64,000 nt of DNA from Candidatus Sulfotelmatobacter sp. (GTDB lineage: Bacteria > Acidobacteriota > Terriglobia > Terriglobales > Acidobacteriaceae), in assembly GCA_030041475.1 (NCBI GenBank), contig JASHNU010000030.1:1-64000 (forward strand), read 5' to 3'. Shown here piece after piece: positions 2 to 23,327 of this stretch; position 1 is the stretch's first letter, and each line of letters starts with the position of its first letter. A program made the translations under genes and the position numbers. The notes under the pieces were generated by a model, which searched no databases, was not told the origin of the DNA, and worked only from the letters and a program-made list of their open reading frames with translations.

Positions 2-1750
2 GCGCAGGCGGCCTATCCGTATTACATGCAGTTCACCAAGGAGGATGATGAGCGCTTCTGGTTCTACAATTCCATGCATTTCCCGGAACCAATGTCCACT
101 TTCGATGTCACAACTGCGGAAGCCGCCTATTGCGCCTTGGGCGCGGCCAACACTAGGGTGCAAAGCTTACCGACGACGCTTGGAATTGACTATCGCATCA
201 TCAACGGGCGGATCTACATCGGCGGTAATGCGGTAACGGATCCAGCCGAAATTGCGCGGCGAACACAAGAATTCCAGCAGCGGGCGTTCTATTACTACGA
301 ACATTGGGAGGAACTATTCGCACAGTGGAAGAACAAGATGTTGGGTCTGATCCGGGTAGCCGAGGCGCTGCCGAAGCTTACCCTGCCCGAGTTCGAGCCC
401 TTGGAACATGTCCGCGGCGGACGCGGTATTGCGTCCAACCACTACCTCCTCGACATTTACCAGAAGACGCTCGAGGGCTATTTCCGAATGTGGCACCATC
501 ATTTCGAGTTTCTGCTGCTCGGTTATGGCGCCTATCTTACTTTCTTCGATTTCTGCAAGAAGGCATTCCCGGAAATCAGTGAACAGACCGTGGCCCGCAT
601 GGTCGCAGGCATGGAAGCGGAAATCTTTCGGCCCGACGACGAACTCCGGCGTCTCGCCAAACGCGCCATCGAACTGGGAGTCGATGACGTGTTCCGCGAG
701 GGCACTGCTCCCGGCGACATCATCCGTTCGCTGGAGCGCTCCAACCCAGGTAGAAAGTGGCTGGAAGAACTGGCCGACTCCCGCGACCCCTGGTTCAACA
801 TCAATGTCGGCGATGGCTTCTACCACTACCATCGCTCCTGGAACGACGACCTCTCTATGCCATTTGCTTCTCTGCCCGGGTACATCGCCAACGTTAAAGC
901 CGGCGAACGCATTGAGCGGCCGATCGAGAAGCTGATGGCTGAACGCCAGCAGCTCATTAGCGCTTACCGCGAGCTGCTAAATAGCGAGGAGGAGCGTGCC
1001 GCCTACGACCAGATGATTCAACTCGCTCACCGCGTGTTTCCTTACGTCGAAGGGCATAAATTCTACTGTGAGCACTGGTACACCAATTTGTTCTTCAACA
1101 AAATCCGGGAGTTCGGGTCGCTTTTGGCCGAACACGGCTTTTTCCCGAACACCGAGGACATTTTTCACCTGACTCACTACGAAGTCGAGGCGGCGATCGT
1201 CGATCTCATGATCTCCTGGTCGAACGGCTCGCCCCCGCGCGGCCCCGCCCGCTGGACGGCGATTGTGAATGAGCGCAAAGCGGCAATTGCAGAATGGGCC
1301 AAGCACGAAACTCCGCCCGCACTGGGACCCGTTCCAGACGTCATTGACGATCCTGCCATTGTCATGCTGTGGGGCATCACGCGTGAGAACCTGGAGGCGT
1401 GGCTGGCAGCAGGCGAGAAGCCGGATTCCAATGAGATCAGGGGATTCGCCGCCTCCAGCGGCATAGTGGATGGCGTGGCCCGGGTGGTGATGTCGGTGGA
1501 AGAGATTGATCGCCTGCGCCGCGGGGATATCCTAGTCTGCCACATTACCAACCCCAGTTGGGCACCGGTTTTTCAAAAGATTGCAGCAGCAGTCTCCGAT
1601 ATCGGCGGCTCCATGAGTCATGCCGCCATCGTCGCACGGGAATACGGCTTGCCTGCAGTCGTGGGAACGGGCTCGGCTACGCAGAAGATCAAAGACGGCC
1701 AGCGCATTCGCGTGGATGGGGGGCGAGGCGTGGTGACGATCCTGCAGTAG
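2..1750 (+). CDS. PEP-synthase-like phosphotransferase, His-domain subunit (hydroxyphenylethanone kinase / phenylphosphate synthase type), 5'-partial
   Basis: This resembles the central and C-terminal part of PEP synthase. The C-terminal swivelling phosphohistidine domain carries GGSMSHAAIVAREYGLP, with the likely phosphorylated His near residue 532 of the visible protein. There is no ATP-grasp domain here; it lies in a separate gene at 2407. This two-subunit split is known from phenylphosphate synthase and from the kinases that phosphorylate the phenol of acetovanillone or 4-hydroxyacetophenone. The frame is open from base 2 with no stop before the first ATG at 26, so the true start probably lies upstream. 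The cytoplasmic role (phosphoryl transfer from ATP to a phenolic hydroxyl) is inferred from family and neighbours. Phenol or another hydroxy-aromatic cannot be excluded as substrate. Confidence 0.8.
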   Translation, partial: AQAAYPYYMQFTKEDDERFWFYNSMHFPEPMSTFDVTTAEAAYCALGAANTRVQSLPTTLGIDYRIINGRIYIGGNAVTDPAEIARRTQEFQQRAFYYYEHWEELFAQWKNKMLGLIRVAEALPKLTLPEFEPLEHVRGGRGIASNHYLLDIYQKTLEGYFRMWHHHFEFLLLGYGAYLTFFDFCKKAFPEISEQTVARMVAGMEAEIFRPDDELRRLAKRAIELGVDDVFREGTAPGDIIRSLERSNPGRKWLEELADSRDPWFNINVGDGFYHYHRSWNDDLSMPFASLPGYIANVKAGERIERPIEKLMAERQQLISAYRELLNSEEERAAYDQMIQLAHRVFPYVEGHKFYCEHWYTNLFFNKIREFGSLLAEHGFFPNTEDIFHLTHYEVEAAIVDLMISWSNGSPPRGPARWTAIVNERKAAIAEWAKHETPPALGPVPDVIDDPAIVMLWGITRENLEAWLAAGEKPDSNEIRGFAASSGIVDGVARVVMSVEEIDRLRRGDILVCHITNPSWAPVFQKIAAAVSDIGGSMSHAAIVAREYGLPAVVGTGSATQKIKDGQRIRVDGGRGVVTILQ

Positions 1751-1851
1751 TGTTCTTTGTGCGTTTCTCTACGTCCGCTGTGACCAACCGGACCTGAGGT
1801 ACAGCGGAGACAGAGTGATGCAGCGCGGCAAAGCCGCACCGGAGGCACATC

Positions 1852-2400
1852 ATGACCACATCAACTATTACAAGAATGACGGCTCCGCCATCCACTGCTT
1901 ACAAGATCGTGGATGTGCCCGAAGCGTATGCGGACGTGATCAAGCGGTACGGCATACCGGGTACATTTGTCGGCTCGTCGGAACAGGAGAGCCCCTGGGT
2001 GCCGTTCGGCCCCAATGCGGCAATCCGCCATCTTCTGTTCGACACCCGCCACAACATTTTCAGCAACATTTTGTGGATCAAGTCCGCCGGCGTCATTGGC
2101 ACACACAAACATCGCGGAACGGTTGTGATGGTTTGCCTCGAGGGGAGTGCCCGCTATCTCGAATACGATTGGGTCGCCGGCCCTGGAGCCTTCATCTATG
2201 AAACTCCCGGACTCGTTCATACTCTGGTGAGCGACCATCCCGATGGCGTCAAGCTGTTCGGTTGGCTGCAAGGTCCGATTGAGTTCTACGATGAGAAGGG
2301 GGCATTCGTGGAAACACTTGATGTGTGGTGGTTCATCAATCACTACGAGAGCTATTGTCGCGAGCACGGCCTTCCGGTCAATAAACAGCTTTACATTTAA
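1852..2400 (+). CDS. Cupin-domain dioxygenase-like protein (2,4'-dihydroxyacetophenone dioxygenase family)
   Basis: A small single-domain cupin of 182 residues. The first cupin motif contains THKHRGTVV, giving a His-x-His metal pair, and a further His follows in ETPGLVHTLV. The overall pattern fits the 2,4'-dihydroxyacetophenone dioxygenase family, non-haem iron enzymes that cleave the side chain of a hydroxyacetophenone. The start is supported by a GGAGG about six bases upstream of the ATG. The gene is inserted between the two kinase subunits, which points to a job on the same aromatic ketone. It could instead be a non-catalytic or sensory cupin: motif similarity alone does not prove dioxygenase activity. 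Confidence 0.75.
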   Translation: MTTSTITRMTAPPSTAYKIVDVPEAYADVIKRYGIPGTFVGSSEQESPWVPFGPNAAIRHLLFDTRHNIFSNILWIKSAGVIGTHKHRGTVVMVCLEGSARYLEYDWVAGPGAFIYETPGLVHTLVSDHPDGVKLFGWLQGPIEFYDEKGAFVETLDVWWFINHYESYCREHGLPVNKQLYI

Positions 2401-2406
2401 TGGTCG

Positions 2407-3456
2407 ATGCATGCCACCGCAAACATCCGCTGGTTCGCCGATATCGCACTTGCCGATCGCGCAGCCGTTGGCGGCAAAGGCGGTTCGTTAGGGGAGCTCA
2501 CGCGGGCCGATATCGCGGTGCCACGGGGTTTTGTCGTAACTACCCACGGATTCGAATGTGTTTTGGCCGGACTGGAAAGGGAGAACTCTATCCGGTCGCG
2601 TGTAGAGGCCCTGTCGCTCCGGGATCTCAAAGGAATCCGACTTCTTTCCGAAGAAATTCGCACGCGCATCAAGAACACCCCTCTGCCGCCAGACCTTTGC
2701 GTGGACATCGTGGCGGCGCATGCGGAGCTCTGCGGTCCGAACCTCAAGTGGCCAGTGGCGGTGCGCTCCTCCGCTACGACTGAGGACTCAGAGGAAGCCA
2801 GCTTCGCTGGACTTCAGGACACCTATCTCTGGGTCGAGGGGCCCGAGGCCGTCCTGAAGTATGTGCGCTCTTGTTGGGCCAGCCTCTACTCGACTCCATC
2901 CCTCTCCTATCGCCGAAAAGACGCCACTCTGGAAAACCGAGTATCGATCGCGGTCGTCGTCCAAAAGATGGTGAATGCGCGCTCAGCCGGAGTGATGTTC
3001 ACGCGGAGCCCACTGACCGGGGACCGCTCCGTAATCGCCGTTGAAGCAACTTGGGGGCTGGGTTCAGCCCTGGTCGGCGGCGAGGTTACACCTGATCGCT
3101 TTGTAATCGCTAAGATCACTGGCGATATCTCCGTGCGAGAAATTTCCGACAAGACCATGCAGCATGTTCCGGCCGAGGGCGGCGGGATCAAGAGAGTCGA
3201 AACCCCGCAAGAACTTCGGAGTGTACCCTCGATCAGCGACACAGAGCTGAATGCTCTGGCGCAAGTTGGCCGCAAGGTTGAACGTCATTATGGGAGACCC
3301 CAGGACATCGAGTGGGCGATTGACCGCTCGGGCGAAATTCTGTTGTTACAGAGCCGCCCCGAGACTGTGTGGTCGGGCAAGGACCAACCTCCGGCTGCGA
3401 AGCCCGCGGAAAACCCGCTTCTGCACGTGATGAACATTTTTGGAGGTCGGCGTTGA
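2407..3456 (+). CDS. PEP/pyruvate-binding (ATP-grasp) subunit of the split phosphotransferase
   Basis: 349 residues matching the N-terminal ATP-binding domain of PEP synthase and pyruvate phosphate dikinase. Visible motifs are GGKGGSLGEL near the N-terminus, VAVRSSATTEDSEEASFAG in the middle, GVMFTRSPLTGDRSVI, and EWAID followed by LLLQSRPETVW near the C-terminus. It lacks the phosphohistidine domain, which the gene at 2-1750 provides, so the two products should form one enzyme: this subunit phosphorylates the His of the other using ATP. It starts six bases after the cupin stop with no clear ribosome-binding site, so translational coupling is likely. Its TGA overlaps the TTG start of the biotin carrier gene. 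Confidence 0.85.
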   Translation: MHATANIRWFADIALADRAAVGGKGGSLGELTRADIAVPRGFVVTTHGFECVLAGLERENSIRSRVEALSLRDLKGIRLLSEEIRTRIKNTPLPPDLCVDIVAAHAELCGPNLKWPVAVRSSATTEDSEEASFAGLQDTYLWVEGPEAVLKYVRSCWASLYSTPSLSYRRKDATLENRVSIAVVVQKMVNARSAGVMFTRSPLTGDRSVIAVEATWGLGSALVGGEVTPDRFVIAKITGDISVREISDKTMQHVPAEGGGIKRVETPQELRSVPSISDTELNALAQVGRKVERHYGRPQDIEWAIDRSGEILLLQSRPETVWSGKDQPPAAKPAENPLLHVMNIFGGRR

Positions 3457-3899
3457 CGCTCACGGCCAAGGACGTGGCCGAAATCATGCGCATCCTCGAG
3501 GAATCGAGCTTCGATGAATTGTCGCTCGAAATGGATGGCGTCAAATTGAAGCTGCAGCGCGGGTCGGCGTTGCGGCAAGCACTCGATCCTCCGCCGGCAC
3601 CATCCCTGCCGCCGAATTCGCCAGAGCCGATACCAGAGTCAGCATCCGAATCTGGTTTGTTAGAAGTCCCTTCTCCTCTGGTCGGAATCTTCTATCTCGC
3701 CCCCAAGCCGGGTGAGCCTCCGTTCGTCGAGTTGGGGTCCAGGGTTGCGGAGGAGACAGTGATCGGAATCATCGAAGTCATGAAGCTGATGAACTCTGTC
3801 CGTTCGGGTGTGAAAGGCGAGGTGGCCGAGATCCTGGTCAAGAACGGTGCGGCGGTCGAGTATGGCGAAGTTCTGATGCGTGTGCGTCCGGAGGCTTGA
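3453..3899 (+). CDS. Biotin carboxyl carrier protein
   Basis: About 148 residues with the layout of AccB: a short helical N-terminal part, a Pro/Glu/Ser-rich linker (roughly 45-70), then a biotinyl domain. The biotinylation motif is EVMKLMNSV, with the acceptor Lys near residue 111. I place the start at a TTG that overlaps the previous stop (TTGA), because a GGAGG lies six bases upstream and the protein then begins directly with the AccB-like helix (TLTAKDVAEIMRILEE). It sits between the kinase genes and a carboxyltransferase, so it probably carries CO2 for a dedicated ketone or acyl carboxylase rather than for acetyl-CoA carboxylase. No biotin carboxylase gene is in the window. Confidence 0.85.
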   Translation: MTLTAKDVAEIMRILEESSFDELSLEMDGVKLKLQRGSALRQALDPPPAPSLPPNSPEPIPESASESGLLEVPSPLVGIFYLAPKPGEPPFVELGSRVAEETVIGIIEVMKLMNSVRSGVKGEVAEILVKNGAAVEYGEVLMRVRPEA

Positions 3900-3902
3900 A
3901 CA

Positions 3903-5390
3903 GTGGCGAATATTCAAATCGTTGAGACCTCACTTCGCGACGGCAATCAGAGCCTTTGGGCGGCACTTGGCGTTGACACCGCGAGGACTCTTAGCATCGC
4001 GCCGGTCATGGACCGCGTGGGTTTTAAGGCCATTGACTTTACTACGTCCACGCACATGGGCGTTGCCATTCGCTACAAGAAGGAAGACCCCTGGGAGCGG
4101 ATTCGACTGATGGCGAAGGCCACTCCGAATACGGCGCTGCAATTTCTCTCGACAGGCTTTCGCTTTATTTCCTGGGAAACAGCCAGCCCCGAATTCATGA
4201 AGCTGGCGTTCGCGACCTTGGTAAGAAACGGGATTCGCCGCTTCGCGCTTGCGGATCCGATGAACAATGCTGACTCCAACATCGCTTGTGCACGCATGAT
4301 CAAGGAGATTGGCGGCGAGTATGTCGTGGCTGCTTTGGTGTTTACGGTAAGCCCTATCCACGATGACTCGCACTACATAGAACGTGCCCGCAAACTTGCC
4401 GCGAGTCCGGACGTGGATGCCATTTATATCAAGGACCCTGGCGGCCTTCTGACGCCGCTGCGCGCACGCGTCATGATTCCGGCTGTCAAGGCGGTGATTG
4501 GAGACAAGCCTTTGGAGCTCCATTCGCATTGCACGATCGGTCTGGGCGAGTTGGTCTACATGGATGCACCGGAGTGGGGCGTAAGCACGCTGCAGTGCGC
4601 CTCGGGTGCCGCGAGTGATGGAATATCCAATCCACCCGCCGAGCGCGTGGTTGCCAATCTGCGCGAACTCGGGCACGAGATCGACATCGACGATGAAGCT
4701 TTGGCCGAAGTTGGCCGCTATTTTACCCGTTTGGCGGAAGCGGAGGGACTTCCCGTAGGGCGGCCCCAGGCTTTTGACGCCGCATACTACCATCACCAGT
4801 TGCCGGGGGGTATGACGGGCACTATGCGGCGGCACCTGGCGGAAGGCAGGCTGGCGCACCTGGAGGGAGCCGTCGTCGAAGAATTAGGCCGAGTGCGCCA
4901 GGAGTTAGGCTGGCCGATCGTGATGACTCCTTTCTCGCAGATGCTGTTGACCCAAGCGGTAATGAACGTTACCGGCAAGGAGCGGTACGCAGTCGTGCCG
5001 GACGAAGTGATTCGCTATGCCTTGGGGCGATTCGGAAAACCCAACCTGCCGATGGCGCCAGAGGTGATGGATCGCATTGATTCGATGCCGCGCACTCGCG
5101 AGCTTCGTCAAGAGCCGGTCATGCCGCCGCTTGCCGAGTTGCGCAAGCGAATCGGGCCGGAACTCTGCGACGAGGAGTTCCTGCTTCGCGCCACTATGCC
5201 GGCCGAACAGGTCGACGCCATGAAAGCCGCGGGGCCAGCTCCGCAGACTTACAATCCTGACGTCGCCCCGGTGATCAACTTACTTCGCCAACTCGCGAAG
5301 CACCGCGACATTGCGTGCCTATCGGTGGACAAGCCCGGTTTTAGGCTGGACTTGAAGGGCCGTCCAGAGCGGTTCAAGGCGACAGTATGA
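3903..5390 (+). CDS. Biotin-dependent carboxyltransferase (HMGL-like / pyruvate carboxylase B-type)
   Basis: 495 residues with the TIM-barrel carboxyltransferase fold. ETSLRDGNQSLW at the N-terminus matches the RDxxQS signature of pyruvate carboxylase and transcarboxylase 5S subunits. The metal-binding LHSHCTIGLG appears near residue 203, and YIKDPGGLLTP near 178 supplies the conserved Lys. A conserved C-terminal carboxyltransferase domain follows. The GTG start is preceded by GGAGG about nine bases upstream. There is no fused biotin domain; the preceding gene supplies the carrier. In this context the likely acceptor is a phosphorylated hydroxyphenyl ketone (inference); pyruvate or an acyl-CoA are the alternatives. 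Confidence 0.85.
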   Translation: MANIQIVETSLRDGNQSLWAALGVDTARTLSIAPVMDRVGFKAIDFTTSTHMGVAIRYKKEDPWERIRLMAKATPNTALQFLSTGFRFISWETASPEFMKLAFATLVRNGIRRFALADPMNNADSNIACARMIKEIGGEYVVAALVFTVSPIHDDSHYIERARKLAASPDVDAIYIKDPGGLLTPLRARVMIPAVKAVIGDKPLELHSHCTIGLGELVYMDAPEWGVSTLQCASGAASDGISNPPAERVVANLRELGHEIDIDDEALAEVGRYFTRLAEAEGLPVGRPQAFDAAYYHHQLPGGMTGTMRRHLAEGRLAHLEGAVVEELGRVRQELGWPIVMTPFSQMLLTQAVMNVTGKERYAVVPDEVIRYALGRFGKPNLPMAPEVMDRIDSMPRTRELRQEPVMPPLAELRKRIGPELCDEEFLLRATMPAEQVDAMKAAGPAPQTYNPDVAPVINLLRQLAKHRDIACLSVDKPGFRLDLKGRPERFKATV

Positions 5391-6250
5391 AACCCAAGTC
5401 GCGAAGTGGCAGGGATGGGTGCCTCAGACCTGTCGAGGGCCTGTTATTCGACCTCGATGGGACGTTGGTCCTCAGTGACCGTTCCTTCAGCGGCTATCTG
5501 GTACTGCCAGGAGCTGTAGAGCTGCTGAACAACCTGAAGACACGCGGCGTCCCCTTTGTTGTGCTCACAAACGGAACGCACTACCCCTCGTCAGTACAAG
5601 CACCTAAGCTGCGAGCCGTTGGCTTGCCGATCTGTGATGATGCTTTACTAACGCCTTCGAGCGTGGCAGCCGACCTGATGCCCGGCCATGGCGTTCGGAG
5701 AGCTTTAGTGTTGGGAACCCCCGGCGTCGGGCACCCTCTGGCGCAGGCCGGGATCCAGACTGTTTTCACTGGTGACGATGGCGCTGAGCAGGTCGATGCA
5801 GTCTATATCGGGTGGCACCCCGACTGCGGCATGAAAGATATTGAGGCAGCCGCGAAAGCCATCTGGAACGGCGCGGAGCTCTATGTGGCTTCCGACGTGC
5901 CCTTTTTCGCCACGGCTGGCGGCAAGAGCATGGGCTACTCCTACGCGATCTCGGCGGCAGTACGTCGCATCACTCGCGCGCCGATGATTCTCACCGGGAA
6001 ACCCTCTCTTCACGCGCTGCGGTTAGTAGCGAAGAGACTCGGCATTCCCATGAGCCGCGTAGGAGTAGTCGGAGACGATCCTCTGGTGGAAATGATCATG
6101 GCCCGGCGCGGTGGCGCCGTCGGGTTCGGGGTGACAACCGGTATCAGCAATGCTCGCGATTGGGCGAAGCAGCCGGCGGGCAGGAAGCCACACCGCATCC
6201 TGCGAAGCTTGGGAGAGTTGCTGGATGTGCCGGGAATCCGAGATCGCTGA
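5387..6250 (+). CDS. HAD-superfamily hydrolase, NagD/phenylphosphatase-like
   Basis: 287 residues. Motif I is LLFDLDGTLV near residue 21 and motif II is VVLTNGTHYP near 59. The layout fits the NagD/4-nitrophenylphosphatase group with a cap domain. A late GVVGDDPLVEM gives the metal-binding acidic pair. Its ATG overlaps the carboxyltransferase stop (ATGA), so it belongs to the same operon. In the Hpe/Acv type of pathway a phosphatase removes the phosphate installed by the kinase after carboxylation, and this gene is the natural candidate. Generic sugar-phosphate or nucleotide phosphatase activity is also possible. Confidence 0.8.
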   Translation: MKPKSRSGRDGCLRPVEGLLFDLDGTLVLSDRSFSGYLVLPGAVELLNNLKTRGVPFVVLTNGTHYPSSVQAPKLRAVGLPICDDALLTPSSVAADLMPGHGVRRALVLGTPGVGHPLAQAGIQTVFTGDDGAEQVDAVYIGWHPDCGMKDIEAAAKAIWNGAELYVASDVPFFATAGGKSMGYSYAISAAVRRITRAPMILTGKPSLHALRLVAKRLGIPMSRVGVVGDDPLVEMIMARRGGAVGFGVTTGISNARDWAKQPAGRKPHRILRSLGELLDVPGIRDR

Positions 6251-6536: not shown

Positions 6537-9500
6537 ATGAGAACGCGCTTGTTGGGTGTTGCCCTTTGCCTGCTTGGTGTAGCGGTATCTTCTGCCCCCT
6601 TGGCTGTCGCTCAGGCTGCCCTTAGCTTCGCTCAACTGAATGGCACGGTCGTAGATCCCGGAGGACGAGCGGTGGTTCGCGCGCAGGTGGTCGTGCATGA
6701 TCCCGACACCGGCCAAAGCTTTCAGGCAACCACCAACGATGCAGGATTTTTCGTGGTGCCGAACCTTACTCCCGGAAACTATGAACTGACGGTCAGCGCG
6801 ACCGGCTTCGCCCGGTACAGGCAGACTGGCATTGTCCTGACCGTGGGCCAAGTTGCCACGGTGAACCCCGCTCTGAAGGTGGCCTCAGTTTCTGAGGAAG
6901 TCACAGTAACCACGGAAGCCCCTCTGGTCGAGCCGACGAAAACGGAGATTAGCCAGGTTGTGGAAAGCCAGCAGGTTGAGTCCTTGCCCACCAGCAGTCG
7001 CGTGTTCACGGACTTCGCTCTTCTCACTCCCGGCGTGGCTACGAGCCGTACCAGCCTGGGCACGACCTTCACCGAGTTTGAGGTAACGCAGATTTCGTTT
7101 GGCGGCATGCGCTCATTCAGCAATGAGATCACCGTGGACGGAGCCGACTTCGTCAACGCCGCCAGCGGCATTCAGCGCGCCACGCCTCCCCAGGAATCCG
7201 TTCAGGAGTTCCGCGTAGTGAACAACAGCTTTGGCGCGGAATATGGCCGTGCGATGGGAGGAATCGTCAACATCGTCACCAAATCCGGCACGAACAAATT
7301 GCACGGTTCGATCTACGAATTTTTTCAAAATAGCGGGGCCGACGCGCACTCGCCCCTGCAACCTCCGCCGCTGCCGCACGCGCTCAGGCAGAATCAGTTT
7401 GGAGGCGCGGTCGGTGGTCCGATTGTCAAAGACAAGACTTTCTTCTTTCTGAACTACGAAGGCAAGCGCAGTGCGCAGTCGCCGGTGTATCCACCGGATC
7501 TAGTCAACAACATTTTGCTGATCGACCAGGCCAAGGCGGTGATGGGGTTGGCGCCCGAGGCATGTCTTGGCTCGGTTAGCACCTGTCTTCCCAATTTTGC
7601 CGGCAATCCCGCCAACATCACTCAGGGCCAAGCCTTTGGGTTCCTCGATGGTTTTCTAAAAACCGCCAACAACGATTTCGGCTTCGCTCGTCTTGACCAT
7701 CAGCTGACCACGAACAATCGCCTGGCTTTTCGCTACAACGTGGAGGATAGCCGCTCGACGAACCAACTGGTGGGGAATACGCTCGATGGCGGCGGGGTCG
7801 GTGTACCCAGCGGCGGCCGGAATCTTTTTATTCGCGATCAGGCCGTTGTCGCCACGGTAAACTCGTTGTTGAAACCCAATCTGGTCAACACCGTGCTCGC
7901 CCAATACACTCGGCGGCACTACAACTTTCCCGGCGCTACGGGCCAACCGGACTTCAGCATCCTAAACGATCTTGAACTGGGCCACAATTTCGGAACGAAC
8001 GACCGGTTGTACGAGACTCGAGCGCAGCTCTCCGAGTCCATCTCCTGGGTAAAAAGCAATCACCTGGCGAAATTTGGGGCGGATGGTAACTGGCTGACGA
8101 GCCTGGAGAATTTTCCCGGGTTCATGCCCACCCGTCTGCTGATACCGTCGGCCGGACCGAATCCCAGCAGCTGCCTATGGGATTTTGCGCAGTACTTCAA
8201 CTCAAACGGGGGCGGCAACTACCCAATACCGGCCAACGCCGCTGCCTTGGCCCTTGGTTGCCCGGTTACCGCAGACGACGGTGTCGTGTTTATGTATGCG
8301 GGCACGCCGCTACCAACCGATCCTACCGCCTGCAGCGGCAATGCCTCCGGCCCAACCCCCTGCATTCCGACCGTCACCACGGCCAATCCGCTTAACGGCA
8401 GCGGATTCCCCAACTCGACTTGGGCCGACGCGTACAATCCCTCGCTATTTAACGGCTTCAGCCGCGATATTAACCACGGATACTGGGGCGTCTTTGCCCA
8501 GGATCAATGGAAACTGAGTCCGAAGCTAACTTTGAATTATGGCCTGCGCTGGGACTACGAAACTGGTCTGTCGGCATTCGTCAACAATGACTACAACGAG
8601 TGGCAGCCGCGGGTTGGGCTTGCCTACGCTCCCACCAGCACCACAGTTATTCGCGCGGGATACGGGATTTTCTTTGACCGGCAAAATCTGACTTTCTTCT
8701 TCGTGCCCAACACACAGAAGATAGTGGCTGGCTATCAATGCGGCAATCAGGCGCCCTCCGGCATCGCAGCCGCCTGCAGCGCCCTCGGAGTCCAGCCTCA
8801 GGTATTTCCAAACATCATGTCGAATCTGGGCCAGGCCGGGCAGGGCTACCAGCTGCTGGCAGACCCGCCATCGCCCGGTCCACCCGGATCCCCCTGTGCT
8901 GGCGTTCCGGAGGCGCCTTGTCTCGCAGCCAAGATCATACAATCCGGGGCCTATAATACGGCCTTTCCCTCCGTAGAAATGGCAGGCACCTGCTTTACAA
9001 CCGGCGCTTGCGGCATTGGCGAGGGTGGTATGGACCATAACGCCCGCGCTCCTTACGCCGAGCAGGGTAGTTTGGAGATTGAGCATCAGCTCGGTCGCGG
9101 CTTCGCGTTTAATCTCAGCTATCTGTTCGTCGAGGCCCACAAGTTGGTTCGCGGGAACAACCTCAATATCCCCTGCCCGGCCGGCACCACCAAGTCGGCC
9201 GTCACCGACCCGCTGCCGGAATGGGTACCCGGTTGGCTCAATGCCGATGGCACACTTTCGCCGTGCACTGGGACGCCAACGCTTGGAACAGGCGCGATTG
9301 CCGGGCTAGGGCCCTTCTTCGGAGGCGCCCTCGGCTCAGGGCTGCGAACCATCAGCTCGGGGCTCGAAGATTACAATAACGACGTCGCCAACGCGATTTA
9401 TCATGGCGGAACGCTGACGGTACTGAAGCGGGGAAAGAATTTCAACTTGACGGCCAACTACACCTACTCCCACACCATCGACAACGGCAACTTCACCACT

Positions 9501-10190
9501 TTTATCAACCTGCCGCCCAACCAGTTTGACTATGCCGCGGAACGCGCGAACTCCAATCAGGACGCCCGTCATCGATTGGTGGCCAACTTCACCGCCATTG
9601 CGCCGCACAACGGGCCGTGGCGGAATTTTGAATTGAGCAACATCGTCACCCTGCAATCGGGCCGGCCTTTCACAATTTTTTATGGCAGCAACACGCTGAA
9701 CGATGTCGCGGGTGGTTCTACGGACCGTGTGGGAGGGTCCTCGTTCGTGCCGGGCTCATGTCCTGACGTGCAGAACTGCGCGACCATGATTCCGCGCAAC
9801 ACTTACATCGGCGATCCGTATTACAACTGGGACTTGCGGCTGGCGCGGAATGTACATATCAACGAGCGCCTGGCCGTGAATCTCGCGTTCGATGCCTTCA
9901 ACCTGCTCAACCGGGCAAATTTCGATGAAGTCACCGGCGTGTACGGCTCACCCGTTTTTTGCGGAGGCATCCCGCAGCACTACAACGATGCCTTGACCCG
10001 GGCCATCCAACAGCAGTCAACATCGGTGGCCTGTCCGAATGGAGGAACCGCCGTTCCCGGGGGAACGCTTGCTCCCACGCCAATCGGAACGACACTGTTT
10101 ATCCCAACGACGCCAAATCCAAACTTCGGGGTGCCGCGCACGGCGTTCAATCCGCGGCAGCTGCAGTTTTCAGTGAGATTCTCGTTCTGA
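6537..10190 (+). CDS. TonB-dependent receptor, Oar-like with carboxypeptidase-regulatory domain
   Basis: 1217 residues. A signal peptide (hydrophobic run in the first 25 residues ending APLAVAQA) is followed by a carboxypeptidase-regulatory Ig-like domain (about 35-120), a plug domain (about 130-260, with QEFRVVNNSFGAEYGRAMGG) and a long beta-barrel ending in FSVRFSF with a terminal Phe, as expected for an outer-membrane barrel. Acidobacteria carry many such proteins and their ligands are rarely known. Its position inside the aromatic-catabolism island suggests uptake of an aromatic or lignin-derived substrate (inference). A purine-rich GGAAGGGG precedes the ATG. Confidence 0.9.
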   Translation: MRTRLLGVALCLLGVAVSSAPLAVAQAALSFAQLNGTVVDPGGRAVVRAQVVVHDPDTGQSFQATTNDAGFFVVPNLTPGNYELTVSATGFARYRQTGIVLTVGQVATVNPALKVASVSEEVTVTTEAPLVEPTKTEISQVVESQQVESLPTSSRVFTDFALLTPGVATSRTSLGTTFTEFEVTQISFGGMRSFSNEITVDGADFVNAASGIQRATPPQESVQEFRVVNNSFGAEYGRAMGGIVNIVTKSGTNKLHGSIYEFFQNSGADAHSPLQPPPLPHALRQNQFGGAVGGPIVKDKTFFFLNYEGKRSAQSPVYPPDLVNNILLIDQAKAVMGLAPEACLGSVSTCLPNFAGNPANITQGQAFGFLDGFLKTANNDFGFARLDHQLTTNNRLAFRYNVEDSRSTNQLVGNTLDGGGVGVPSGGRNLFIRDQAVVATVNSLLKPNLVNTVLAQYTRRHYNFPGATGQPDFSILNDLELGHNFGTNDRLYETRAQLSESISWVKSNHLAKFGADGNWLTSLENFPGFMPTRLLIPSAGPNPSSCLWDFAQYFNSNGGGNYPIPANAAALALGCPVTADDGVVFMYAGTPLPTDPTACSGNASGPTPCIPTVTTANPLNGSGFPNSTWADAYNPSLFNGFSRDINHGYWGVFAQDQWKLSPKLTLNYGLRWDYETGLSAFVNNDYNEWQPRVGLAYAPTSTTVIRAGYGIFFDRQNLTFFFVPNTQKIVAGYQCGNQAPSGIAAACSALGVQPQVFPNIMSNLGQAGQGYQLLADPPSPGPPGSPCAGVPEAPCLAAKIIQSGAYNTAFPSVEMAGTCFTTGACGIGEGGMDHNARAPYAEQGSLEIEHQLGRGFAFNLSYLFVEAHKLVRGNNLNIPCPAGTTKSAVTDPLPEWVPGWLNADGTLSPCTGTPTLGTGAIAGLGPFFGGALGSGLRTISSGLEDYNNDVANAIYHGGTLTVLKRGKNFNLTANYTYSHTIDNGNFTTFINLPPNQFDYAAERANSNQDARHRLVANFTAIAPHNGPWRNFELSNIVTLQSGRPFTIFYGSNTLNDVAGGSTDRVGGSSFVPGSCPDVQNCATMIPRNTYIGDPYYNWDLRLARNVHINERLAVNLAFDAFNLLNRANFDEVTGVYGSPVFCGGIPQHYNDALTRAIQQQSTSVACPNGGTAVPGGTLAPTPIGTTLFIPTTPNPNFGVPRTAFNPRQLQFSVRFSF

Positions 10191-10249
10191 CAACCGCAAT
10201 AATCGCGGGGATAGCGGCTTTTTGTCAGCTGGCGAAAAGGAGCGATGTC

Positions 10250-10684
10250 ATGAGATTCCGAGGTTTTAACTTCCTGATTGGAATGACGCTGGCAGCCACG
10301 ACCATCTCCGTGGGACAAGAAGCGCACCCTGCAGTGAAGCACGCCACGGCAGCTGCCACCTCGCCTGCCTCAGGAAAAGAAATGTTTATGAGCTACTGCG
10401 CTTCCTGCCATGGCAAGGACGCCAAAGGAGACGGCCCGGCTGCCGGTGCGCTGAAGCAGGCTCCGGCCGATCTGACGTCACTCGCAAAGCAGAATGGCGG
10501 TAAGTACCCCACGGATAAAGTGACCAGCGTTCTTCGCGGACAGGCCAGCCTGATGGCGCACGGCGATCAGGATATGCCGGTGTGGGGCCCAGTGTTCTGG
10601 AAAATGAGCCAGGGACACGAAGAGCTGGTGCAGATGCGGATTGCGAATCTGAACAAGTACGTGGAGTCGCTGCAACAAAAATGA
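10250..10684 (+). CDS. Periplasmic c-type cytochrome
   Basis: 144 residues. The N-terminal hydrophobic segment (FLIGMTLAATTISVG) is a signal peptide. One haem-binding site, CASCH, lies near residue 48, with GDGPAAGALK after it and a Met (DMPVWGPVF) downstream as the likely sixth ligand. The ATG at 10250 is chosen because AAAAGGAG stands just upstream; an earlier in-frame start would lie inside the receptor gene. It could accept electrons from the PQQ dehydrogenase encoded at 15410. Confidence 0.85.
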   Translation: MRFRGFNFLIGMTLAATTISVGQEAHPAVKHATAAATSPASGKEMFMSYCASCHGKDAKGDGPAAGALKQAPADLTSLAKQNGGKYPTDKVTSVLRGQASLMAHGDQDMPVWGPVFWKMSQGHEELVQMRIANLNKYVESLQQK

Positions 10685-10843
10685 AGCGAAGACCCGTGGT
10701 CGCGGACTGAATTTAGCGGCGTAATCCTAAAGTTGCCGAGGCAAAGCCTTCCCCATTCGAATGCATGCGGCACACGCTTTTGTGCGCCCACGGAACAAGA
10801 TCCCAGCGAGGTTTCTACTCAGCAGATTCCGGGTTACCAGAGC

Positions 10844-12343
10844 ATGAGCAATTCCAAGACAGTCCCTCCGTTCCGCAAGCCTGAAGCGCACCATGGCTGG
10901 GTGCGGAAGCACGAGCTCGATGACTATCTTGATCGGCATCTTCCCATACCGACGCAAGTTGTCTCCAACGAGGAATTTATTCCGCTACCGCAGACCAGAA
11001 AGCAGCGCGCGGTTGAGAATGAATTACTCGAAATGGGAACTAGAATCTCGAAGAAATTAGGTATCGACCGCCGGCAGTTTTTTCAGACTGCTTGTGGAAT
11101 GGCTGCCGGCTTTGCGGCCATGAACACCGTGTTTGGGCGGTTCTTCCGAGTGGACTCCGCCGAGTTGTATGATGGGGTCGCAGCCGCCGCCATGAAAGCG
11201 GAGTATTTTATCTTCGACGTGCAAACGCACCATGTCGCCGCGGGACGGCATTTCATAGGACCGGCGGATGTTTTCGATACCCGGCGCGCAGCCGGCCAAT
11301 TCAATCCAGTGCTGAAGGGGAAAGAGCCGAAAGAATCCGATTTTGAGCTCGACAACTATATCAAGGAAGTTTTTCTCGACAGCGATACGCAAGTCGCCTG
11401 TCTCAGCGGCATTCCCGACATTACCGAAGAGAAGATGGTCATCCCGCCGGACGAGATGGTGAGGACGCGCAACATTGTCAATGAACTGACGCGTTCGCAG
11501 CGGATGATGAGCCACGGCCTCTTCTCGCCTGATTTGGGGACGAAGAACTTGGAGAATATGCACCGGCAGGCCGAGACCCTGAAAATTGATGCCTGGAAGG
11601 GATACACCGGTCAGGGACTCGGAGCAAATAAAGACGGATGGTGGATGGATGACGAGACGATCACGTATCCGGCGCTGGAGTACAGCCGCGACAAGTTGAA
11701 GATTCGCAACATCTGCCTGCATAAGGGACTGGCCATCGGTGTTTTTAACGAGGCGCATTGCCATCCGAAAGACATGGTCAAAGTGTCGAAGGACTTTCCG
11801 GAGTTGAATTTCCTGATTTATCACTCCGGCCTGAAGACTGTAGAGGATGCACTGCCTGCCGCAGAGGACGGGTTCCGCAAGAATGCTTATGTTCCCTGGG
11901 TCTCCGATTTGTGCGAGTACCGGCGGAAGAATCCGCACATGACCAACGTGTACATGGAGCTAGGAACCAGCTTCGGGACCGTAACCATCACGAGCCCCAT
12001 GCTGGGGGCGCACATGCTGGGAATGATCGTTCAGGCATTCGGCGACGACCATGTGCTCTGGGGAACGGATTCCATCTGGTGGGGATCGCCGCAGTGGCAG
12101 ATCGAAGCTCTGCGCCGCCTGGAGATGCCAGAATTGCTGATGAAGCAATTCGATTACGCACCACTCACGGCCGAAACAAAAGCCAAGATTTTTGGACTCA
12201 ATGCGGCCCGATTGTACGGCGTTGATCCAAAGGCAAAACGGAATCCGGTGCCGGCCGATTACGTAGACCGGCTGCGGAAACAATACAAGGAAGCCGGAAA
12301 TCCAGCACCAAGCAACACGCAATACGGCTGGGTGCGCGCATGA
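10844..12343 (+). CDS. Amidohydrolase-2 family protein with internal Tat-like signal
   Basis: About 499 residues. A hydrophilic segment of about 75 residues precedes a twin-arginine-like motif (DRRQFFQTACGMAAGFAAMN), then the amidohydrolase barrel. Recognisable metal and active-site stretches are FDVQTHHVAAG, FNEAHCHPKDM, FLIYHSG and LWGTDSIWWGSP with the conserved Asp. The family contains decarboxylases and hydrolases of aromatic acids (LigW, ACMSD and relatives) as well as many uncharacterised members. The start at 10844 is preferred over upstream codons because the residues before it look untranslated. The substrate is unknown; an aromatic carboxylic acid or lactone is a reasonable guess from context. 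Confidence 0.8.
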   Translation: MSNSKTVPPFRKPEAHHGWVRKHELDDYLDRHLPIPTQVVSNEEFIPLPQTRKQRAVENELLEMGTRISKKLGIDRRQFFQTACGMAAGFAAMNTVFGRFFRVDSAELYDGVAAAAMKAEYFIFDVQTHHVAAGRHFIGPADVFDTRRAAGQFNPVLKGKEPKESDFELDNYIKEVFLDSDTQVACLSGIPDITEEKMVIPPDEMVRTRNIVNELTRSQRMMSHGLFSPDLGTKNLENMHRQAETLKIDAWKGYTGQGLGANKDGWWMDDETITYPALEYSRDKLKIRNICLHKGLAIGVFNEAHCHPKDMVKVSKDFPELNFLIYHSGLKTVEDALPAAEDGFRKNAYVPWVSDLCEYRRKNPHMTNVYMELGTSFGTVTITSPMLGAHMLGMIVQAFGDDHVLWGTDSIWWGSPQWQIEALRRLEMPELLMKQFDYAPLTAETKAKIFGLNAARLYGVDPKAKRNPVPADYVDRLRKQYKEAGNPAPSNTQYGWVRA

Positions 12344-19228: not shown

Positions 19229-20338
19229 ATGAGCAAAAGACCGGTGGTGATTTACGGGGCCAATGGTTTCTCCGGTAGGCTGATCGCCGAATTTCTCCGC
19301 GAGTACAACACACCTTTCATAGCGGCGGGCAGAAGCGCTTCCAGGATCAAGGACGTGATGGATCACGTCCCGGGCATCGAGACTGCTGATTTTGAGATTG
19401 CGGAAACCACCGGAACGACCGAAGATCTCACGCGCATCTTCAACGGCGCCAAGGTTGTTTGCAACACCGCCGGCCCATTTATCTACAACGGCCCCAGAGT
19501 CATTGAAGCGGCCCTAAAGGCTGGTTGCCATTACATCGATATCGGCGGGGAGCAGACCTGGCTTCGCGAGGTCGCTGAGAAGTGGGGCGAGAAATTCAGC
19601 GAGCGGGGGCTTCTCGCTGCCCCTGCCACTGCTTTTATGTGTGCGGTTAGCGATGCCGCGGCCAGGCTTTGCTTGCAGTCTGGGGCAATCGACACGCTCG
19701 AAACTGTCACGATGTTCAAAGGCATTCCAACCTTTGGTTCCACGCAGACGATTTTTGCGGTCATCCAAACGGACGCCTATTATCTGGAGCAGAATCAGTA
19801 CAAGCCCTGGCCGCGCGCGACTCGCTATGACGTGACCATTCCCGGCTATTTGCAAACCCAGCTGGCGCTGGCGTGGGGAGGGTTCCCTCAGCCTGTCTGG
19901 TTTAAGAACCACCCGCAAGTTGCTAATGTGCGCTCAATGGGCGGATTGCTCGATCGCCAGATCATGGAAGGCGTAGCGGCAACCGAAAAAATGTACGAAG
20001 AACAGATTCGGCCGTTGGCCAAGGCTGAGCGGGAAAAGAAGCTTGCCGAGATGGCGAACGCGGTGCAGGCGGGAACACCACCGCGCGAAAACCCGCGTGA
20101 ACAGCGTACGATTGAGGTCGTTGTGGGCCGGGGTTCGACTGATTACGCACAATGTGTGGTCTTCGGCACTTGTTGCTATCGACAGACTGGACTGATCCAG
20201 GCATTCGCCGCGCATCACCTGGTGCACGCGGCGCCGGGGAAGGTTGGCTTTGCTTCGCCCGCGGAAGCATTCGGACATCACGAAATATTGCGGGTTCTGG
20301 AAGAGCACGGCTTTGCCAAGGTTCGGTTTACTTCCTGA
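19229..20338 (+). CDS. Saccharopine-dehydrogenase-like NAD(P)-binding oxidoreductase
   Basis: 369 residues with an N-terminal Rossmann fold (VVIYGANGFSGRLIAEFL) and the CHYIDIGGEQTW stretch seen in saccharopine-dehydrogenase-like and trans-acting enoyl-reductase proteins. GAGGAG precedes the ATG. It is the first gene of an operon with an acyl-CoA ligase, a lipoyl carrier and E1 subunits, so it may reduce or dehydrogenate a CoA-bound or free aromatic side-chain intermediate. No exact substrate can be read from the sequence. True saccharopine dehydrogenase is unlikely because no lysine-pathway genes are nearby. Confidence 0.75.
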   Translation: MSKRPVVIYGANGFSGRLIAEFLREYNTPFIAAGRSASRIKDVMDHVPGIETADFEIAETTGTTEDLTRIFNGAKVVCNTAGPFIYNGPRVIEAALKAGCHYIDIGGEQTWLREVAEKWGEKFSERGLLAAPATAFMCAVSDAAARLCLQSGAIDTLETVTMFKGIPTFGSTQTIFAVIQTDAYYLEQNQYKPWPRATRYDVTIPGYLQTQLALAWGGFPQPVWFKNHPQVANVRSMGGLLDRQIMEGVAATEKMYEEQIRPLAKAEREKKLAEMANAVQAGTPPRENPREQRTIEVVVGRGSTDYAQCVVFGTCCYRQTGLIQAFAAHHLVHAAPGKVGFASPAEAFGHHEILRVLEEHGFAKVRFTS

Positions 20339-20354
20339 TTCATAGAGACTAGTC

Positions 20355-21923
20355 ATGCGCGCGATCGACTATTTGGACAAGGGTGCCGAAGCAAACCTCG
20401 ATCGCACTGCCGTTATCGCCGCCGACGACTCCTGGTCCTATCGCGAAATGCGCGCGGCGACGGAAAATATCGCTCGCGCTCTGCGGGCGAGCGGATTACG
20501 CGATCAGGAGCCTGCCGGCATCTACTCGCACAACGATGCCCGAGCGCTGTTTTGCATGCTGGGCATCATGCGGGCGGGAGCCGTGTGGGTGCCGATCAAT
20601 TACCGCAACGCTCTTGACGCCAACGTCGAATACATGAACTACGTTGAAATGGCGTGGCTCTTCTATCACAGCCAGTTTCGAGACAGTGTTCGTGAAATCA
20701 AGCAGCGCGTACCTTCGCTGCGCGGCATAATCTGTCTCGATCGCGACGATGACGAACATCCATCTTTGCAGACTTTCATTGAACGTGGTGCAGGCGCTGA
20801 GGTGCCGGATTGGGGCGATGCGTACGGAAATCCTGACCGGCTTGCCGGACTGGTGCCCACTGGAGGAACGACCGGGCCGGCCAAAGGCGTTCGTGTAACT
20901 AATCTTGCCTTGGGCACGATGACGGAGATGGCCACGCATTACTGGGTTGGCGATCTGGAACATCCTGTCTGCCTGAATAGCGCACCACTGTCGCATGCAG
21001 CGGGCGTCCTGGCGTTCGTAATGTGTTCGCTAGGGGCGACCAATGTGATTATGCCCAAGTTCGATGTGCTTGAAGTGCTTCGCAATATTGAGCGCTATCG
21101 CGTGACGCACCTCTATCTTCCCCCCACCGCACTCTACAATCTGCTCGCGCATCCGGAAGTGCGCAACTTTGATTATTCAAGCCTCCGCGGTTTTCTTTTG
21201 GCGGGATCGCCGGTGGCTCCGGACAAATTGAGGAACGCGGTGGAAGTCTTCGGCCCATGCATGTGTCAGTCCTACGGTCAGACGGAAGCGCCGATGATCC
21301 TGACCTTTCTCGACAGCCAGACTATTGCGGCAGCGGCCGACGGGGTGCATCCGGAACGGCTGGCCAGCTGCGGCAAGCCGACTTTGGCGGCGCGACTCGC
21401 CATCATGGACGACGCCGGCAGGATTTTGCCGGTTGGTGAACGCGGGGAAATCGTGGCGCGCGGTTCGCTGATCTGCGGCGGCTATTACAAGATGCCTGAG
21501 GCGACGGCAGAAATCCGCACTCATGGCTGGCACCATACCGGGGATGTCGGTTACCTGGATGAAGAAGGCTACGTCTATATCGTAGATCGGAAGAAAGACA
21601 TGATCATCTCTGGCGGCTTTAATGTTTACTGCACTGAGGTGGAAGCGGCGGTGATGTCACTGCCTGAGGTTCACGAGTGCGCGGTGATTGGCGTTCCTCA
21701 TGAGAATTGGGGCGAGGCGGTCAAGGCATTCGTTGTGCTTGATCCGGGCGCATCGTTAAGCGAGGCAGCCATTATTTCTCATTGCAAATACAAGTTAGGG
21801 GGAGTAAAGGCTCCAAAATCTATCGAATTTTGCGACGACATTCCCAAGACTGCTGCCGGCAAGATAGATCGAAAGAAAATGCGCGCTCCCTACTGGCAAA
21901 ATGCCGAAAGGCAAGTGCATTAG
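20355..21923 (+). CDS. AMP-forming acyl/aryl-CoA ligase
   Basis: 522 residues with the full ANL pattern: P-loop-like VPTGGTTGPAKGVRV near 175, SYGQTEAP near 310, HTGDVGYLDEEGYVYIVDRK near 395, and the catalytic C-terminal Lys in PKTAAGKIDRKKM. It activates a carboxylic acid as the adenylate and then the CoA thioester. The gene starts 17 bases after the reductase stop. In this island the acid may be an aryl-propanoic, aroyl-acetic or benzoic acid; a fatty acid is also possible. The family reads clearly, the substrate does not. Confidence 0.88.
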   Translation: MRAIDYLDKGAEANLDRTAVIAADDSWSYREMRAATENIARALRASGLRDQEPAGIYSHNDARALFCMLGIMRAGAVWVPINYRNALDANVEYMNYVEMAWLFYHSQFRDSVREIKQRVPSLRGIICLDRDDDEHPSLQTFIERGAGAEVPDWGDAYGNPDRLAGLVPTGGTTGPAKGVRVTNLALGTMTEMATHYWVGDLEHPVCLNSAPLSHAAGVLAFVMCSLGATNVIMPKFDVLEVLRNIERYRVTHLYLPPTALYNLLAHPEVRNFDYSSLRGFLLAGSPVAPDKLRNAVEVFGPCMCQSYGQTEAPMILTFLDSQTIAAAADGVHPERLASCGKPTLAARLAIMDDAGRILPVGERGEIVARGSLICGGYYKMPEATAEIRTHGWHHTGDVGYLDEEGYVYIVDRKKDMIISGGFNVYCTEVEAAVMSLPEVHECAVIGVPHENWGEAVKAFVVLDPGASLSEAAIISHCKYKLGGVKAPKSIEFCDDIPKTAAGKIDRKKMRAPYWQNAERQVH

Positions 21924-21986
21924 CGCAGGTGCATTGGGCTAAGAGCGCAAAATCCGCCTGTGAAGATCTGAGCCGAGGGTGCATCC

Positions 21987-22253
21987 TTGACAGCGGTGGT
22001 CGTACCCAAATCCGGCGGAGTCACCACTACTAAAGCGGTTGTCGTGCGATGGCTGAAGCACGAAGGGGACCGCGTGAAGGCCGGAGAGCCGTTGGTCGAA
22101 TTGGAGACGGAAAAAGTCAGCTACGAGCTCGAATCGCCTTTCAGCGGCATACTCATAGGGCTCCTGGCCCACGAGACTGCCGAGGTCCCGGTCGGAGAAC
22201 CGCTTTGCGAGATTGCAGAATCGGCTGGGAAACCTCAAAAGAAAAAGAAGTAG
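21987..22253 (+). CDS. Free-standing lipoyl (biotin/lipoyl-attachment) domain protein
   Basis: About 88 residues, one lipoyl domain and almost nothing else. The attachment site is ETEKVSYELES, where Lys lies on the hairpin turn as in E2 lipoyl domains (ETDKA type), not the EAMKM type used for biotin. The C-terminus ends in a short Lys-rich tail (KPQKKKK) instead of an E1/E3-binding and acyltransferase domain. It starts at TTG, with only a weak GAGGG upstream. It precedes E1 alpha and beta genes, so it probably accepts the acyl group made by that E1. No catalytic E2 and no E3 gene is present nearby. Confidence 0.8.
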   Translation: MTAVVVPKSGGVTTTKAVVVRWLKHEGDRVKAGEPLVELETEKVSYELESPFSGILIGLLAHETAEVPVGEPLCEIAESAGKPQKKKK

Positions 22254-22262
22254 GAGGCCGAA

Positions 22263-23318: not shown

Positions 23319-23327
23319 GAGGAAAAG

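Follow-up and report, generated by a model that had tools for sequence, protein, structure and literature searches.

Among the major products of lignin breakdown are acetovanillone, 4-hydroxyacetophenone and beta-hydroxypropiovanillone, compounds whose catabolism is sought after in biorefining. In Rhodococcus rhodochrous GD02, acetovanillone and 4-hydroxyacetophenone are phosphorylated by the two-subunit kinase HpeHI, the phosphates are carboxylated by HpeCBA and dephosphorylated by HpeD, and HpeE and HpeF have been proposed to convey the beta-keto acid through a CoA route to vanillate or 4-hydroxybenzoate (PMC9618137). Sphingobium SYK-6 employs AcvABCDEF, with finishing by VceA and VceB. In Novosphingobium sp. 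MBES04, a cluster with a gene like that of 2,4'-dihydroxyacetophenone dioxygenase (DAD) is most strongly induced by beta-hydroxypropiovanillone, the oxidation of which gives vanilloyl acetate; its promoter also responds to 2,4'-dihydroxyacetophenone, and the strain is reported not to assimilate the phenylpropanone (PMC10866074). N. aromaticivorans, whose route involves vanilloyl acetaldehyde via HpvY, has neither VceA nor VceB; its authors stated that further enzymes are still to be found, and how bacteria without VceA/VceB cleave vanilloyl acetate was still an open question in 2025 (PMC11837543).

Two cupin enzymes are relevant here. In the pocket of DAD, Trp61 and Asp63 hold the phenol hydroxyl group and Phe129 stacks on the ring; a part in the handling of peroxide and O2 has been proposed for Tyr93 and Glu108. 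Dke1, an Fe(II) enzyme with a 3-His site, converts many beta-diketones able to form cis-beta-keto-enolates (PMC4019311). The papers searched on Hpe/Acv clusters name no cupin, and none describes one inside the kinase pair, in agreement with the initial annotation of the present locus, which knew of no such arrangement. Here, I describe a cupin occupying that very place.

The cupin gene and its operon

The window, i.e. the whole stretch of DNA analysed, comprises 64 kb from the start of contig C105, which is 98,050 bases long and belongs to a draft genome of 4.6 Mb, whose nearest named relatives in a scan of species genomes are Candidatus Sulfotelmatobacter MAGs. The cupin open reading frame (182 aa) is a real gene and scores above the gathering cut-off of Pfam Cupin_7. 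It lies, as initially annotated, between the two kinase subunit genes, in an operon with the order H-cupin-I-C-B-D (Table 1); 101 bases separate it from the hpeH-like gene, and the C, B and D genes follow the hpeI-like gene with touching ends. The six bases to the second kinase gene, to which attention had been drawn, are there in the window, but the size of this gap is not conserved, ranging from about 24 to 190 bases in relatives.

Table 1. Features of the operon, with positions in the window
Feature	Position	Strand	Basis
HpeH/AcvB-like kinase subunit (PEP-utilising mobile domain)	2-1750	+	PF00391, NCBIfam PRK08296; 57% identity to R. leguminosarum H
Part of the hpeH-like gene within the contig, its 5' end (about 22 codons) lying beyond the contig start	2-1750	+
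Cupin ribosome-binding site GGAGG	1841-1845	+	Read from the sequence, 6 bases 5' of ATG 1852
Cupin, DAD sister subfamily, G-type	1852-2400	+	Cupin_7, DAD structures, purifying selection, AlphaFold model (mean pLDDT 93)
Codons of putative iron ligands H85 and H87 (HKH)	2104-2112	+	Align with DAD His76 and His78; invariant in 199 cupins
Codon of Y102, equivalent to DAD Tyr93	2155-2157	+	Invariant in 199 cupins
Codon of E117, equivalent to DAD Glu108	2200-2202	+	Invariant; 6 residues before the third His, spacing as in Dke1 Glu98-His104
Codon of putative iron ligand H123	2218-2220	+	Aligns with DAD His114; invariant
HpeI/AcvA-like kinase subunit (PPDK_N, ATP-binding)	2407-3456	+	PF01326; 51% identity to R. 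leguminosarum I
HpeC-like biotin carboxyl carrier protein	3453-3899	+	PF00364; TIGR00531 near cut-off
HpeB-like carboxyltransferase	3903-5390	+	HMGL-like and PYC_OADA; 55% to R. leguminosarum B
HpeD-like HAD-IIA phosphatase	5387-6250	+	PF13344, TIGR01460; 43% to R. leguminosarum D

Both the two-component kinase and the HAD phosphatase are recognisable from Pfam and NCBIfam models and from their identity to the complete R. leguminosarum cluster, and the carboxyltransferase is 62-73% identical to many Sphingomonadaceae homologues. The operon thereby resembles hpeHICBADEF of GD02 in its two-subunit kinase, carrier protein, carboxyltransferase and phosphatase; it differs in lacking A and E and in carrying the cupin between H and I, whereas GD02 has hpeA, the CoA ligase/hydrolase pair hpeE/hpeF and no cupin. 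The three-component carboxylase is incomplete, C and B being present and hpeA not being found in the window operon or in the operons of the cupin-bearing relatives. Other AccC genes occur elsewhere in the window genome. The possibility that hpeA resides on a neighbouring contig was rejected, as the sole AccC gene near a contig edge (C44) belongs to an unrelated locus. Operons devoid of their own hpeA are in fact common, including every operon with the cupin and about half of the HpeHI operons of Sphingomonadaceae (window 3453-5390; loci L205, L207, L209, L215-L222 and L231-L233), which suggests that a shared housekeeping AccC serves them. A search of viral contigs found nothing.

As for the finishing steps, HpeE is absent from the window genome and from each of the eight relatives whose operon contains the cupin; most of these relatives possess HpeF-like genes. 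BKACE/VceA is absent from the window genome too, and no finishing module, either HpeE plus HpeF or VceA plus VceB, is present within the window operon. The likeness to SYK-6 is hence confined to the kinase-carboxylase-phosphatase logic toward vanilloyl acetate, for SYK-6 finishes by VceA and VceB, encoded elsewhere in its genome.

Conservation of the gene order and co-occurrence with the pathway

A scan of 84,980 species genomes retrieved 80 cupin loci. The H-cupin-I order recurs in seven Ca. Sulfotelmatobacter/Terriglobales MAGs, the cupins of which are 90-95% identical, and in a single genome of the Hyphomonadaceae, the cupin of which is 78% identical, with C, B and D following wherever the contigs reach (two of the seven MAG loci end before the last genes). 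The cupin displays dN/dS values of 0.05-0.09, near those of hpeH (0.03-0.13) and below those of I, C and mostly D; it is under strong purifying constraint. No cupin lies between H and I in the nearest other HpeHI operons, those of Sphingomonadaceae (H 70-74%, B 62-73%), and none was seen in the annotated plasmid stretches with the hpe clusters of R. leguminosarum (order H-I-C-A-B-D-E-F, with HpeE/HpeF), P. putida (E-Tm1-C-A-B-D-F) and Sphingomonas bisphenolicum (VceB-VceA-Tm1-C-A-B-D), in which the Tm-1-like (UPF0261) gene presumably encodes the single-component kinase MarK. The position of the cupin is a lineage feature in two phyla and no general rule. In the B tree, the Hyphomonadaceae gene falls outside acidobacteria and sphingomonads (support 88), and the H-cupin-I order is either ancestral or was gained twice. 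Conservation of the position, on which the initial annotation had made its proposal depend, holds in one group of Acidobacteriota and one alphaproteobacterium and, in trans, the cupin is a near-constant companion of the pathway, yet it is missing inside most kinase operons.

This companionship is best seen among 249 Sphingomonadaceae genomes, in which hpeB was sought at E up to 1e-100 and the cupin at E up to 1e-45: hpeB is found in 32, the cupin in 34, both in 31 and neither in 214 (Fisher p 6e-35, uncorrected for phylogeny). In the lone genome that has hpeB but no cupin, the cluster includes VceA (71%) and VceB, and three genomes have the cupin without hpeB. In seven genomes with a Tm-1-type cluster, the cupin lies 3.4-14 kb from hpeB (in one of them, G780, the contig shows B and D only); in HpeHI-type Sphingomonadaceae the distance is 26 kb to 2 Mb, or the two genes are on different contigs. 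A Tm-1 kinase gene occurs within 10 kb of 28 Sphingomonadales cupin loci. Plasmid pNL2 of N. aromaticivorans F199 yielded no cupin match at E 1e-60. A shared lignin-eating lifestyle could be behind part of the co-occurrence.

A sister subfamily of 2,4'-dihydroxyacetophenone dioxygenase

By sequence, the nearest solved structures are those of DAD from Alcaligenes sp. 4HAP (4p9g/5bpx, E 5e-21, 32% identity), likewise set in aryl-ketone side-chain metabolism. The HxH and later His of a metal cupin, spotted from the outset, indeed align with the three iron histidines of DAD and, together with the equivalents of Tyr93 and Glu108, are invariant in an alignment of 199 family cupins. An AlphaFold model of the cupin, built from 45 sequences, was compared with known structures by VIA-align: the best matches are the Ralstonia cupin 3ebr (Z 22), DAD (Z 20), 3cjx (Z 19) and the acetylacetone dioxygenases (Z 17-18), with KdgF lower in the list and unrelated cupins beginning at Z 14. 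After DAD, the next match of known function is thus Dke1, the Dke1-type fold being retrieved with 3bal_A (Z 17.2 over 139 residues, rmsd 4.6) and 2o1q_A (Z 17.6). The C-C cleavage of beta-dicarbonyls by the 3-His Fe(II) site of Dke1 may, by analogy, be counted as a further likeness, in addition to the position of the Glu before the third His; on the other hand, identity is 15%, and the substrates of Dke1 are diketones, with no known aroylacetate.

The initial designation as DAD-type holds at the family level only. All nine hpe-linked cupins have F70, N72 and G137 in the pocket, N72 being invariant throughout the subfamily, and the DAD motifs G(X)3RHXHP and EGHTLV are replaced by GVIGTHKHR and LVHTLV. 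In the subfamily, Ser49 of DAD becomes Ile, Trp61 Phe or Tyr, Asp63 Asn, His80 Gly, Trp137 Phe, Tyr153 Phe and Met156 His (the window cupin having Phe for Trp61), while the position of Phe129 is occupied by either Gly or Phe, which defines a G-type and an F-type. The hpe-linked cupins are all G-type, with Leu at the position of DAD Glu112; the G clade has 97% support in the tree, and the hpe-linked set is grouped with weaker support. Orthology to DAD is ruled out by the pocket residues and by the tree, in which the cupin belongs to a separate clade. It is a member of a sister subfamily of DAD that is so far uncharacterised, and the known pathway in which it occurs is here arranged in a new way.

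In sphingomonads, DAD-like, G-type and F-type cupins occur in tandem and in fixed order at 39 of the 80 loci, the trio lying between a TonB receptor and SDR, alcohol dehydrogenase and VanA-type Rieske genes (L095, L105, L115, L131 and others, around 8900-11100). At about half of the 80 loci, the subfamily is accompanied by DAD-like paralogues which retain Trp61 and Asp63.

The genomic island

According to gene order in relatives (L068 and L071-L073), contig C9, reversed, appears to run into C105. Just upstream of hpeH there are thus genes for a MarR regulator, a CoA ligase, an enoyl-CoA hydratase/3-hydroxyacyl-CoA dehydrogenase and a GcvT-type O-demethylase, and the C9 stretch further contains an F-type cupin about 19 kb and an HpeF-like amidohydrolase (C9:15841-16665) about 16 kb from hpeH. 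The GcvT-type gene beside the latter scores above the NCBIfam cut-off for LigM and just short of that for DesA. Joined at this junction, the F-type cupin, the HpeF-like gene, the two genes of GcvT O-demethylase type and the hpe operon form one lignin island. Downstream of the operon, the window encodes a TonB receptor, PcaHG, an aldehyde dehydrogenase, a PQQ dehydrogenase and a CoA ligase. Given the LigM-type demethylase, PcaHG and the other genes of the island, guaiacyl acids are plausible end products.

The receptor (6537-10190) is a large TonB-dependent protein with a CarboxypepD_reg-like N-terminus, is located directly 3' of hpeD and is kept in relatives; it is a candidate outer-membrane importer of the aromatic substrate. 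An Amidohydrolase_2 gene (10733-12343) with a twin-arginine-like signal (RRQFFQ) is 88% conserved in L071, where it too lies 3' of the hpe operon; it was considered as HpeF and discarded, identity being no more than 22% over 157 aa. Near the operon, no gene for glyoxylate use was recognised, and hydroxypyruvate isomerase was dropped as a glyoxylate marker, since the AP_endonuc_2 genes resemble QuiC instead.

Outside the hpe operon, the usual setting of the cupin is with an SDR and a zinc alcohol dehydrogenase, both of which accompany it at 54 loci. In other acidobacteria, the F-type cupin is found with VanA, PcaGH and PQQ dehydrogenase, and no kinase gene was found. Plasmid NZ_CP077418.1 of Rhodococcus qingshengii carries two tandem DAD-family cupins together with an annotated glucose 1-dehydrogenase and 2,3-butanediol dehydrogenase, a P450, a VanB-type reductase and the formaldehyde-fixing pair hxlAB, a gene set that looks like a guaiacyl-ketol catabolic cassette.

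The possible role of the cupin

The best explanation, to which I would give a probability of about 0.4, is that the cupin is an Fe(II)- and O2-dependent enzyme cutting the aroylacetate product of the operon to an aromatic acid, as a CoA-free alternative to HpeE/HpeF or VceA/VceB. By analogy with the published homologues, H and I would phosphorylate a hydroxyphenyl methyl ketone at the phenol, C and B would carboxylate the methyl ketone together with a biotin carboxylase encoded at another place in the genome, and D would remove the phosphate, giving an aroylacetate such as vanilloyl acetate or 4-hydroxybenzoylacetate. What I infer for the cupin itself is its use of iron and O2, its substrate, the release of glyoxylate and its replacement role: as one of the mononuclear Fe(II) dioxygenases related to DAD and Dke1 it would bind the beta-keto acid via its keto-enolate on the 3-His iron, an aroylacetate being, by analogy, a beta-dicarbonyl of the sort accepted by Dke1, and cleavage with O2 would yield vanillate or 4-hydroxybenzoate, presumably with glyoxylate. 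The aromatic acid would then pass to the island's genes for LigM-type demethylation and for 3,4-cleavage of protocatechuate, the cupin standing in for the CoA-dependent finishers.

This reading is favoured by the conserved order, the low dN/dS, the co-occurrence with hpeB, the invariant ligands, the DAD/Dke1 fold and the missing HpeE and BKACE/VceA, as well as by the clusters with HpeE/HpeF or VceA/VceB, which show no cupin in their annotated stretches. N. aromaticivorans, devoid of VceA/VceB, illustrates the need for such an enzyme, and the induction in MBES04 provides a hint; there, a gene described as DAD-like heads a four-gene lignin-induced operon (cluster G-II), and the paper reports no link to a kinase or carboxylase. 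Against it, the HpeF-like amidohydrolase and the CoA ligases lie within about 16 kb, so that a CoA route may coexist, and the view that the cupin plainly replaces HpeF is weakened by the presence of an HpeF-like gene in the same island. Also on the opposing side are the three cupin genomes without hpeB, a possible shared lifestyle, the lack of a recognised glyoxylate-use gene nearby and the reported failure of MBES04 to assimilate the phenylpropanone, and the dehydrogenase neighbours at other loci would suit ketol chemistry equally well.

The latter point leads to the main rival, a less likely reading, according to which the cupin performs true DAD chemistry in parallel to phosphorylation and carboxylation, converting an aryl alpha-hydroxyketone (2-hydroxy-acetovanillone or the C3 Hibbert ketone 2-hydroxy-1-guaiacyl-propan-1-one) into vanillate and formate or acetate. 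DAD is the closest characterised relative, an SDR and a zinc alcohol dehydrogenase stand beside the cupin in most non-hpe loci, the Rhodococcus plasmid combines two such cupins with dehydrogenases, the MBES04 promoter responds to 2,4'-dihydroxyacetophenone, and the change of Phe129 to Gly would give space for a methyl or methoxyl group. The operon, however, makes no alpha-hydroxyketone and contains neither a hydroxylase nor an alcohol dehydrogenase, DAD activity may already be covered by the paralogues with Trp61 and Asp63, and the near one-to-one link with hpeB would be left unexplained.

It is rather improbable that the cupin is a regulatory, binding or detoxifying accessory which travels with lignin genes and has come to lie between H and I by accident, with no specific Hpe step to perform. 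The hpe operons of Sphingomonadaceae, Rhizobium and P. putida do without a cupin, and the F-type copy of other acidobacteria keeps company with VanA, PcaGH and PQQ dehydrogenase in loci where no kinase gene was found; but an accessory fits poorly with a gene order shared by two phyla, with the strong purifying selection, with catalytic residues that do not vary and with co-occurrence with hpeB in 31 of 32 genomes, even where the two are unlinked. The substrate-binding or proofreading function put forward in the initial annotation is likewise unlikely, because the catalytic residues are invariant. Least probable of all is an O2-free reaction, either a metal-dependent retro-Claisen hydrolysis to vanillate and acetate or another cleavage or decarboxylation of the beta-keto acid, or action on the 4-phospho form before HpeD, which shares the genomic arguments for an aroylacetate dioxygenase and has precedents in non-oxygenase metal cupins such as KdgF, but is at odds with the invariant equivalents of Tyr93 and Glu108 and with the nearest structures of known function, which are dioxygenases.

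Cleavage of an aroylacetate by the cupin also modifies the original proposal of an alternative oxidative exit from the same ketone: the exit is probably oxidative and the link to aryl ketones stands, but the substrate is more likely the carboxylated beta-keto acid. Somewhat more tentatively, the subfamily as a whole might be the missing O2-dependent, CoA-free aroylacetate dioxygenase of lignin catabolism, cleaving vanilloyl acetate and finishing both the hydroxyphenylethanone carboxylation and the beta-hydroxypropiovanillone pathways in bacteria without HpeE/HpeF or VceA/VceB, including relatives of N. aromaticivorans. A concrete gene family is hereby named and its site of action predicted, and genomes with the pathway nearly always carry the cupin. 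An oxidative finisher independent of both ATP and CoA would make a simple component for strain engineering and, if the proposal is true, a new reaction would be added to the small group of 3-His iron dioxygenases cutting aliphatic C-C bonds.

Other loci

Two further gene associations were noted. On plasmid NZ_CP020716.1 of Cnuibacter physcomitrellae (Actinomycetota), a DAD-like cupin lies about 2 kb from a divergent carboxyltransferase/BCCP/AccC/BioY operon, a further case of a cupin in the vicinity of biotin carboxylase genes. In the window (19229-24305) and in L031 (3108-4244), a DUF5938/saccharopine-dehydrogenase-like gene is followed by a CoA ligase, accompanied in the window by E1 alpha and beta subunits; in other acidobacteria, the pair of DUF5938 and ligase genes is also found flanking the F-type cupin.
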